Part shown: piece by piece, positions 2,813 to 5,624 of the stretch
How positions within the stretch are numbered: position 1 is the first letter of the stretch
How the letters are laid out: the number at the start of each line of letters is the position of its first letter
Source of the DNA: a bacterium
GTDB taxonomy: Bacteria > Blakebacterota > Blakebacteria > Blakebacterales > Blakebacteraceae
NCBI GenBank assembly: GCA_025774615.1
Contig: JALGVQ010000166.1
Location: 1 to 9,963 of the forward strand
DNA length: 9,963 nucleotides
Reading direction: 5' to 3'
Made by a program: the position numbers and the translations under genes
Notes under the pieces: model-generated
Told to the model about the DNA's origin: nothing
Databases searched by the model: none
Seen by the model: the letters and a program-made list of their open reading frames with translations, nothing else

Positions 2813-2840
2813 TCTTGACGTTATGACGTCAAGACGTTAT
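2813..2840. promoter_or_regulatory. Putative RHH autoregulatory operator (8-bp periodic GACGT repeats with palindrome)
   Basis: Three consecutive 8-bp units, GACGTTAT (2817-2824), GACGTCAA (2825-2832) and GACGTTAT (2833-2840), share the GACGT core at exact 8-bp spacing. On top of this is a 22-bp palindrome with perfect 9-bp arms: TCTTGACGT (2813-2821) and ACGTCAAGA (2826-2834). Ribbon-helix-helix repressors commonly bind arrays of short, evenly spaced half-sites as several dimers, and the gene starting at 2852 encodes such a domain. The element covers the -35 box and spacer and reaches into the -10 box. The repeats and palindrome are seen directly; the role as operator is inferred. Confidence 0.6.
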
Positions 2841-2843
2841 CAT
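2815..2843 (+). promoter_or_regulatory. Sigma70-like promoter of the toxin-antitoxin module (predicted leaderless)
   Basis: The -35 element TTGACG (2815-2820) and the -10 element TATCAT (2838-2843) are separated by exactly 17 bp. Transcription would begin around 2849-2852, at or just before the ATG at 2852. No Shine-Dalgarno sequence precedes that ATG, which agrees with a leaderless mRNA. The transcription start is inferred from the spacing. Confidence 0.6.
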
Positions 2844-2851
2844 CTACTATT

Positions 2852-3445
2852 ATGGAAGACAAATTGAGAAGGACCACGATCTATTTCGATCCAGCGGTCC
2901 ATCAGCACCTTCGTATGAGAGCTGCTGAAACGGGCCGATCGGTCTCGGACCTGGTAAATGAGATAATCGAATCGGCTCTCGAGGTCGAATCTGCCGACGG
3001 ACGATATTCCCTCCCCGCCATCCCCGACGGGACCGTCCATGAACCAGGTGTCGAGTATACTGGATTGACTGATCGGATCGAACGATTGGAACGCAGGATC
3101 GGGATCGTGGATGATGGTCCCGAGACCGCTGGTGAACCTTCCACTCTCCTCACTCTGACTGATGTGAAGGAACGTCTCGGCAGCAACAGTCGAAGATTGA
3201 AGGAACTGGGAGTCAGGTCACTATCTGTGTTCGGGTCCCTGGCCAAACAGAGATTCAAGTCGGACAGCGATATCGACTTCCTGGTCGAATTCGAATACCA
3301 GGTCGGTCTCTTTCGCCTCATCGAAGTTGAACAGTACCTCACCCTCCTTCTTACAAGCGAAATTGACCTCCTGACACCCGACTCACTGAAGCCGAAGATG
3401 AAGAACAAGATCCTGAATGAGGCTATCCGTGTCTTCCCAATCTGA
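2852..3445 (+). CDS. mntA: RHH-MNT fusion: MntA-type antitoxin nucleotidyltransferase with DNA-binding domain
   Basis: Probable antitoxin of a type VII (MntA/HepT) module. Residues 5-43 look like a ribbon-helix-helix domain: the beta-strand RRTTIYFDP, a helix VHQHLRMRAAETG, the turn RSVSDLVNEI and a second helix. A linker rich in G, P, D and E (about 45-98) follows. Residues 99-197 form a minimal nucleotidyltransferase: GS at 128-129, ten residues, then D140-I-D142 (the GSX10DXD signature), and a likely third acidic residue, Asp172, in EIDLL. In known MntA proteins this fold transfers AMP from ATP to the tyrosine of the partner HEPN toxin and so inactivates it. The known MntA proteins I can recall are mostly the nucleotidyltransferase domain alone; the added RHH domain suggests the protein also represses its own promoter through the repeats just upstream. 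The ATG has no ribosome-binding site, which fits leaderless translation. The 3' end overlaps the toxin gene. Confidence 0.88.
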   Translation: MEDKLRRTTIYFDPAVHQHLRMRAAETGRSVSDLVNEIIESALEVESADGRYSLPAIPDGTVHEPGVEYTGLTDRIERLERRIGIVDDGPETAGEPSTLLTLTDVKERLGSNSRRLKELGVRSLSVFGSLAKQRFKSDSDIDFLVEFEYQVGLFRLIEVEQYLTLLLTSEIDLLTPDSLKPKMKNKILNEAIRVFPI

Positions 3446-3776
3446 AAAAGAATACCTTGAGGATCTGATCGAGGCCTGCGAGTGGATTCTTCATTATACG
3501 GATGACATGACATTCGAAGACTTCTCTGAGGATAGAAGGACAATCGACGCGGTCCTGAGGAACATTATCGTGGTCGGAGAAGCTGTGAACAAATTGCCGA
3601 CAGCTTTCACTGAGGAGAATCCCCGGATCCCCTGGCACAGCATGCGCGGTCTCCGAAACTTCGTCGTACATGAATATCGCAGCATCGATCTCCCGAGACT
3701 CTGGGAAACCGTCCAGAATGATATCCCTTCGATCCTGCCTGAATTGAAAAGGCTCTGCACCGATCCAACACTCTGA
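3429..3776 (+). CDS. hepT: HepT-type HEPN ribonuclease toxin (DUF86)
   Basis: Small all-helical HEPN protein of about 115 aa, the usual size for DUF86/HepT. It shows the HEPN core and the toxin signature RX4HXY as RNFVVHEY: Arg76, His81 and Tyr83, counted from the GTG start. Arg and His form the RNase site across a dimer. The Tyr is the residue AMPylated by MntA in known type VII systems. Other family-like stretches are AVLRNIIVVGEAV (41-53) and IPWHSMRGLRN (67-77). I prefer the GTG at 3429: GAGG stands 6 nt before it, and the resulting MSSQSEKEYLEDLIEAC matches the usual family N-terminus. An ATG at 3417 would add four residues but has no clear ribosome-binding site. It overlaps the antitoxin gene by 17 nt, which implies coupled translation. 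The catalytic residues are intact, so the toxin is probably functional. Confidence 0.9.
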   Translation: MSSQSEKEYLEDLIEACEWILHYTDDMTFEDFSEDRRTIDAVLRNIIVVGEAVNKLPTAFTEENPRIPWHSMRGLRNFVVHEYRSIDLPRLWETVQNDIPSILPELKRLCTDPTL

Positions 3777-3858: not shown

Positions 3859-5624
3859 ATGCACCTACGTGTCACAATCGGGATTGTGTTACCGGTCCTC
3901 ATTGTTGTGCTGGCCGGCTGTTCGTGCTGGCCGGCTGTTCATTTACCACCTCTGACTCCGAGGGCGGCGGGATCGAGTTCGCGGTCACCTTCAGCGAGAA
4001 GGCCAGCGTCGAGACTCTCGACGGCCGGATCATCCTTCTGCTTTCGACCGACAACGCATCCGAACCGCGTTTCCAGACCGGTGGCGGCGCCAGCGCGATC
4101 GGCGTGTTCGGCCTGGATGTGGATGGCCTTGCTCCCGGTGCGGAAGCAGTCGTCGATGGCTCGGTCTTCGGATATCCCATCGAGAGTCTTGACGAACTGC
4201 CGAGGGGTGTCTACTACGTGCAGGCCGTGTTCCACAAGTATGAGACCTTCCATCTCTCGACCGGCAATACGGTGAAGCTCCCGATGGATCAGGGCGAGGG
4301 GCAGCACTGGAACCGCTCTCCCGGAAACCTCTACAGCACCCCCCGGAGGATCTCCATCGACCCCACCCGGCCGGTGCGGTATGAGATCGAGATGGAGGAG
4401 GTCATCCCCCCCATCCCCGAACCGGCGGATACGGAGTACATCAAACACATCCGTATCCAGAGCGACCTGCTCACCGAGTTCTGGGGCCGGCCGATGTATC
4501 TCGGAGCGCACGTGTTGATCCCTGAAGGGTTCGACGATCATCCTGAAGCACGCTATCCCCTCATGGTCTTTCACGGGCACTACCCTTCCGACTTCGGAGG
4601 ATTCCGGACCGAACCGCCCGATCCCGATCTTGAGCCCGATTACAGCAGCCGGTTCGGGATCTCGGGATACAATCAGATTCAACAGCAGGAGGCATACGAC
4701 TTCTACCAGCAGTGGATCGCACCCGATTCACCACGCGTCCTGATCATCGAGATCCAGCACCAGAACCCCTATTACGACGATTCGTACGCCGTGAACTCGG
4801 CCAACCTGGGGCCATACGGGGACGCCATCACCTACGAGCTGATCCCCTTTATCGAGGAACAGTTCAGGGGTATCGGCGAAGGATGGGCGAGATTCCTCTA
4901 CGGCGGTTCCACCGGCGGCTGGGAAGCCCTCGCGGTACAGGTCTTCTATCCCGATGAATACAACGGCTGCTTCGCGGCCTGTCCCGATCCGATCGATTTC
5001 CGCCAGTACAGCCTGGTGAACATCTACGAGGATGAGAACGCCTACTACGAGGGAGGATCTCTCCATCAGGTTGAGCGACCTGCCCGCCGGGACTGGCTCG
5101 GCAATGTGAGTACCACCGTACGGGACGACAATCATCTCGAACTGGCGCTGGGCAGCAACAGCAGGTCGGGCGATCAGTGGGATATCTGGCAGGCTGTCTA
5201 CTCCCCCATGGGCACAGACGGATATCCTGAACCGATCTGGGACAAGTACACAGGCGAGATCGATCACGAGGTGGCCGATTACTGGCGGGAGAATTTCGAT
5301 CTGCGCCATATCCTCGAGCGGGACTGGGCGACACTCGGGCCGAAGCTCGCGGGAAAGATCCATATCTACTGCGGGGACATGGACAACTATTACCTCAACA
5401 ATGCCGTATACCTGATGGAAGAGTTCCTTGAGGGTACGACCGATCCATACTACGGTGGCGAGGTCGATTACGGGGATCGGGCCGAACACTGCTGGAACGG
5501 TGACCAGGAGAATCCCAACGCCATCTCGCGGCTCCGTTACAACACGATGTACCTGCCCATGATCCTGGAGCGGATCGCTGACAGTGCGCCCCCGGGCGCC
5601 GATCTGAAGAGCTGGTGGTATTGA
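3859..5624 (+). CDS. Secreted lipoprotein esterase (alpha/beta hydrolase), frameshifted at the signal peptide
   Basis: Putative envelope-anchored esterase of the esterase D/enterochelin-esterase-like (PF00756) type. From the ATG at 3859 the frame encodes a short hydrophobic signal ending in the lipobox LAGC (18-21). It is then thrown out of frame by a 17-bp tandem duplication (3907-3940) and would stop at 4273-4275. The rest of the protein lies in the frame that runs from 3924 to 5624. Removing one 17-bp copy gives a clean 582-aa lipoprotein: lipidated Cys21, Ser at +2 (consistent with outer-membrane sorting), an N-terminal beta-rich region (about 25-175), then a hydrolase domain. In restored numbering the likely triad is Ser345 in GGSTGG, Asp501 or Asp503 in GDMD, and His538 in AEHCW. 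A GTG at 3924 could restart translation, but it lacks a ribosome-binding site and gives no signal peptide. One base separates the stop from the next ATPase gene. The substrate is unknown. Confidence 0.85.
3907..3940 (+). repeat. Exact 17-bp tandem duplication disrupting the esterase frame
   Basis: GTGCTGGCCGGCTGTTC occurs twice, back to back (3907-3923 and 3924-3940). The unit encodes VLAGCS, the end of the signal peptide and the lipobox. As 17 is not a multiple of three, the extra copy shifts the frame. With a single copy the signal peptide joins perfectly to the mature lipoprotein, so the duplication is probably recent. Confidence 0.97.

Follow-up and report, generated by a model that had tools for sequence, protein, structure and literature searches.

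A RelB-like ribbon-helix-helix domain and a relBE-type candidate operator joined to the nucleotidyltransferase of an MNT-HEPN gene pair

The window (the whole 9,963-nt stretch of DNA analysed) carries two overlapping genes preceded by a candidate operator and a predicted promoter (Table 1). The first gene encodes a protein in which a ribbon-helix-helix (RHH) domain is joined by a linker to a minimal nucleotidyltransferase (MNT) domain, and the second, which overlaps its 3' end, encodes a HepT-like HEPN protein. Scanning the fusion protein against Pfam (hmmscan) placed NTP_transf_2 (PF01909) at residues 115-193, above the cut-off (E 1e-11), and its catalytic motif was complete (G128, S129, D140 and D142). 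Matches to FitA-like_RHH (residues 13-43) and RHH_5 (residues 7-44) stayed below the gathering score when the whole 197-aa protein was scanned; FitA-like_RHH and Antitox_RHH exceeded it when only residues 1-53 were scanned. In addition, residues 1-74 were matched at 58 bits by a RelB-like antitoxin profile.

Table 1 Features of the rhh-mnt/HEPN locus and its upstream region (window coordinates).
Feature	Position	Strand	Evidence
rhh-mnt fusion gene, 197 aa, ATG start	2852..3445	+	ORF, Pfam, AF2 model
Ribbon-helix-helix (RHH) domain, RelB-like, residues 5-44	2864..2983	+	Pfam, RelB-like profile, fold match
Linker, residues 45-98, mostly low-confidence in model, possible RelB-tail remnant	2984..3145	+	AF2
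Minimal nucleotidyltransferase (MNT) domain, residues 99-197, GSX10DXD	3146..3442	+	Pfam, AF2, fold match
HepT-like HEPN gene	3429..3776 (GTG, 115 aa) or from ATG 3417 (119 aa)	+	PF01934, E 2e-27
RX4HXY motif, RNFVVHEY	3654-3677	+	In HEPN gene
Predicted operator, three ACGT-centred boxes 8 bp apart, CTTGACGTTATGACGTCAAGACGTTA	2814..2839	+	relB-learned motif, 29.5 bits
Perfect 9-bp inverted repeat overlapping operator	2813-2821 / 2826-2834		Upstream sequence
Predicted sigma-70 promoter: -35 TTGACG (2815-2820), 17-nt spacer, -10 TATCAT (2838-2843)	2815..2843	+	Scan

An AF2 model of the fusion protein, built from the A2 alignment (10 rows), had a mean pLDDT of 74, with confident RHH and MNT domains and a linker that was not (pLDDT mostly <60, with a single helix at residues 70-82). 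The RHH helices spanned residues 14-27 and 31-48, and VIA-align superposed residues 4-48 on CopG, Arc, AtaR and TacA2 with Z values of 5.3-6.2, which are modest and refer to a stretch of 45 residues. Profile and model matches together assign the N-terminus to the RHH fold of CopG/RelB-like autorepressors. Residues 97-197 aligned with MntA structures (Z 8-12.6), and the MNT model ended without a further C-terminal helix. In the model, residues 45-98 look like a flexible tether; five in-frame candidate start codons for a separate MNT occur inside the fusion, with no clear Shine-Dalgarno. The HEPN protein was modelled at a pLDDT of 91, its closest fold being Shewanella HepT (6M6U/5YEP). Among 42 aligned HEPN relatives, E51, H81 and Y83 (115-aa numbering) were invariant and R76 was nearly so. 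The assignment of RHH, MNT and HEPN domains is thus far beyond chance. It bears out the initial annotation, which had read an RHH-like N-terminus (residues 5-43), a linker of ~50 residues and a GSX10DXD nucleotidyltransferase in the first gene and the HEPN motif in the overlapping second; the structure prediction that it had proposed recovered the RHH helices and the MNT fold, and RHH homology in residues 1-45, the absence of which would have counted against it, was found.

The pair has the gene content of class I HEPN/MNT (type VII) systems, namely adjacent and overlapping PF01909 and PF01934-type genes, each above its Pfam cut-off and with the MNT first, and their motifs, GSX10DXD in the MNT and R76, H81 and Y83 of RX4HXY in the HEPN. 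Scores against the NCBIfam MntA and HepT equivalogs (NF047752, NF047751) were 39.6 and 41.8 bits, respectively, under the curated cut-off of 60, so by that rule the pair is of the class and not an orthologue of those model families. The MNT also departs, at 197 aa with an RHH domain, from the description of class I MNTs as single-domain proteins of <150 aa, which is descriptive and not strictly defining. Nor is the locus a RelBE (type II) operon, as the gene after the fusion is HepT-like and not RelE/ParE.

Downstream of the pair, a 17-bp tandem duplication (GTGCTGGCCGGCTGTTC twice, 3907-3940) shifts the reading frame between a lipoprotein-like signal peptide (ORF from 3853) and an esterase-like ORF (3924-5624). 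It represents one of three things: slippage, phase variation or an assembly error.

The nearest relatives of the RHH region were small RHH proteins whose genes stand immediately ahead of RelE genes. These included one from a gammaproteobacterium (locus L004; 49% identity over the best segment) and a relB-like gene from the fusion's own genus (L003/L056) that shares the operator and its spacing. The fusion keeps strand residues R7, T9 and Y11, which are invariant across the relB-like relatives. Compared with the RelB-like RHH antitoxin/RelE (ParE_toxin) operons at L004, L037, L050 and L056, the RHH region is ~40-55% identical and the 26-bp operator over the promoter is shared, as is, with some of them, the probably leaderless spacing. 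However, what comes after the RHH differs: a short tail and then a RelE gene in those operons, the MNT and the HEPN gene at the fusion locus.

The likeness extends to the upstream DNA. Within the 200 bp before the start codon lie the inverted repeat, TCTTGACGT-TATG-ACGTCAAGA, together with two copies of GACGTTAT at a distance of 16 bp, and the same pattern was visible upstream of nearly all the relBE relatives. A 26-bp motif was then learned by expectation-maximisation from 16 relB-like upstream regions, with the window left out. Its consensus, CTTGACgTtATAACGTtaTGACGtTA, comprises three boxes centred on ACGT at 8-bp intervals, of which the first overlaps the -35, and the motif was present in 14 of the 16 regions (log-likelihood 197, versus 63-69 on shuffled upstreams). 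The match at the fusion lies 12 nt before the start codon and far exceeds the best of 60 shuffled windows (16.7 bits), while the regions upstream of 59 unfused MNT open frames scored 8.1 bits at most. In the whole genome the exact box pattern occurred once, at the fusion; elsewhere, its own reverse strand apart, it was found with three mismatches, at places no commoner than those for a reversed control pattern. The predicted promoter has 10/12 consensus matches, a quality for which one site is expected by chance in the region, and its spacing is the same at L004, L054 and L056. The operator-promoter motif ends 10-12 nt before the ATG at the fusion and at several relB-like genes (L004, 408-641; L054; L056). 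As the predicted -10 sets the transcript start close to the ATG, the fusion mRNA is probably leaderless, as at those three loci.

The predicted operator thus places repeated and inverted boxes over the fusion's own promoter, the arrangement of an autorepressor, and at the sequence level the RHH domain and the operator match relBE loci as a pair. Given that both resemble relBE loci, the simplest history would be capture of both from a relB-like gene, its 5' end with promoter and operator having been joined in frame to an mnt-hepT pair. In a different reading, the antitoxin would be bifunctional: residues 1-84 would form a complete RelB, still able to neutralise or sense RelE, and the MNT would handle the HEPN toxin. 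Alignments with relB-like proteins do reach approximately residue 78 and the linker holds an EP...Y pattern, so that a relationship between linker and RelB tail is suggestive; however, the tail similarity alone is not significant, the two RelE/ParE genes of the genome have other antitoxins (Phd-like and a different RHH), and no relB-type operator lies near either. We consider this bifunctional reading very unlikely.

We investigated the occurrence of such fusions more widely, using searches that could miss diverged RHH-MNT proteins. A full-length RelB-type fusion was not found beyond the window among 386 domain-wide genomes, 386 from the phylum in which close MNT relatives are most numerous, and a handful of small phyla, nor in one other genome of the genus; it is known from one metagenome-assembled genome (82% complete, 324 contigs). 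Phage records held no match to the fusion, one viral-contig scan returned nothing, and in plasmid records neither fusion type was present over at least 80% of its length. Among long open frames upstream of other MNTs, an RHH was found only at L024/L095, where a ParD-type RHH (PF03693, E 1e-6) is fused to an MNT. The initial annotation's call for a search for other RHH plus MNT architectures was answered by this second fusion. It is carried by seven genomes, all from a single genus of a different phylum, where the 149-aa protein shares 79-96% identity with that of L096. A search of 386 widely spread genomes and of 57 from its phylum found it in no other genus.

Other arrangements were encountered around MNT genes. 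The genome of the RelB-type fusion has a second, unfused MNT-HEPN pair (L002, G000:C263, ~1450-2100), in which the HEPN match crosses an in-frame TGA. At L090 (G412:C392, 457-1100) an MNT open frame with a ~130-residue N-terminal region that does not look like an RHH is followed by a HEPN gene, and at L012 (G187:C362, 651-2016) an MNT gene is overlapped, in the usual HEPN position, by a gene for a 283-aa HNH-type endonuclease-like protein.

The ParD-type fusion resembles the RelB-type one in that a HepT-like gene comes immediately after the RHH-MNT gene in four of its seven genomes (L096-L099; E 3e-21), starting right behind the fusion stop codon. In the remaining three (L095, L100 and L101) the HEPN gene is gone, and an apparent remnant of its start is left in L100 and L101. 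Like the RelB-type, it has a dyad over the promoter region (GATAACAAA-n11-TTTGTTATC in L096), conserved among the ParD-type genomes with small changes. It differs in its RHH family, its length, its phylum and its HEPN protein, where G replaces R of RX4HXY; this makes motif-based activity uncertain, and toxicity is less sure there. In one of the loci that lack the HEPN gene (L101, 1498-1950), the catalytic loop of the MNT reads FDS instead of FGS, which hints that selection on the enzyme relaxed after toxin loss. By the Nei-Gojobori method, the RHH part had the lowest dN/dS (0.022), followed by the MNT (0.162) and the linker (0.335), and the RHH value was 0.036 among the three genomes without HEPN. 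Purifying selection on the RHH part of the ParD-type fusion is therefore very strong. A tree of MNT domains resolves neither the placement of the RelB-type fusion nor the separateness of the two; we take them as separate origins because their RHH families differ.

This second fusion also bears on the integrity of the first. A relB-like 5' end could have been wrongly joined to an mnt-hepT contig during assembly, and the single, fragmented genome and the lack of the fusion in the one congener searched are what such an artefact would give. One open frame spans the linker, however, and a false junction within these 54 residues would be in frame only by chance; with similar fusions in seven other genomes, we judge misassembly highly improbable.

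We regard it as probable that the locus is a class I HEPN/MNT (type VII) operon in which an RHH autorepressor is part of the AMPylating antitoxin itself. By analogy with characterised relatives, the MNT half would transfer AMP to Y83 of the RX4HXY motif and so block the HEPN RNase (PMC7641770, PMC11586414); family knowledge likewise suggests that the HEPN protein is toxic. The RHH half would dimerise and bind the three boxes across the -35 and spacer of its own promoter, and in the bound state may repress both genes of the operon, as the operator held in common with the relBE relatives implies. Points against are that the RelB-type fusion is in one genome, that both genes score under the NCBIfam cut-offs and that the MNT is without the C-terminal helix, although a Legionella MNT without this helix still AMPylates (PMC11586414).

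The RHH might instead have given up DNA binding and serve dimerisation only, so that two MNT sites meet a HEPN dimer, with the operator left as a relB relic. RHH domains are obligate dimers. Known MntA-HepT complexes are also oligomeric (PMC7641770). Against this, the operator is intact and includes a perfect inverted repeat, the strand residues of the RHH are kept, and constraint in the ParD-type lineage is strongest on the RHH, even where the HEPN has been lost, so loss of DNA binding appears improbable. Alternatively, the fusion may be a domesticated transcription factor with the HEPN protein as its regulatory subunit and not a toxin. Where a HEPN and an MNT share a single polypeptide, the HEPN domain is typically inactive (PMC3710099), and three of the seven ParD-type fusions have outlived their HEPN gene. 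However, loss of toxin before antitoxin is also predicted for a toxin-antitoxin pair, R, H and Y of RX4HXY are all present in this HEPN, the antitoxin-toxin gene order is maintained, and the operator is a single site in the genome and not a regulon. We hold domestication to be about as improbable as a purely dimerising RHH, and favour the reading of an antitoxin that modifies its toxin and represses its own operon.

That one protein here both modifies the toxin and regulates the operon was also proposed in the initial annotation, which did not mention the operator, and the RHH-MNT arrangement upstream of the HEPN gene, with its operator over the promoter, supports self-repression. The accompanying idea, that this replaces the separate regulators of other toxin-antitoxin types, is not supported in that form: type II antitoxins usually combine toxin neutralisation with a DNA-binding domain of their own. 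Moreover, the canonical MntA SO_3165, which has no such domain, is reported to bind its own promoter and to repress it mildly, deletion of the pair giving a 1.6-fold rise in promoter activity (PMC4621449). Autorepression by an MntA-type antitoxin is therefore not new.

Among known systems, SO_3165/SO_3166 of Shewanella oneidensis (class I, type VII) shares the PF01909 and PF01934-type pair with the antitoxin first, the GSX10DXD and RX4HXY motifs, and promoter palindromes near -35/-10 with reported self-repression (PMC4621449, PMC7641770). It differs in that MntA is a single MNT domain with a longer C-terminus, to which the fusion adds the RHH before the MNT and the relBE-type operator. The HEPN-MNT pair of Legionella pneumophila has a similarly short MNT lacking the C-terminal helix and a HEPN with RX4HXY, but no RHH domain (PMC11586414). 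The paREP1 HEPN-RHH fusions of Thermoproteales also join an RHH to a HEPN/MNT-type protein; unlike in RHH-MNT, the RHH sits on the HEPN protein and the operon has no MNT gene (PMC2701414). The same paper (Makarova 2009) presents HEPN/MNT modules as having no obvious DNA-binding part and guesses at one acting in trans (PMC2701414). No description of an RHH-MNT fusion, or of an RHH with MntA/HepT, was found in the open-access papers searched. The initial annotation had also seen the arrangement as lying outside the canonical MntA layout. Judged by those papers, the RHH-MNT fusion, the relBE-type operator match and the occurrence in two phyla with different RHH families are new.

The DNA-binding part that HEPN/MNT modules seemed to miss is here fused to the antitoxin, and likewise in a second phylum, and the RelB-type locus is a case of a DNA-binding domain and operator matching those of an unrelated toxin-antitoxin family. 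More generally, we put forward only tentatively, and with some doubt, that antitoxins acting as enzymes can take up RHH domains, at least once together with the operator-promoter that matches, to give type VII/type II hybrids in which toxin state is coupled to transcription. The seven ParD-type genomes, three of them without the toxin, form a natural series for studying toxin loss, and the RelB-type locus offers a testable system for asking whether a covalently modifying antitoxin can couple toxin state to transcription. As the same chain would modify the toxin and sit on the promoter, the modification state of the toxin and transcription would be coupled; if so, HEPN without the modification could keep RHH-MNT on the DNA or drive it off, giving a built-in feedback absent from canonical MntA.
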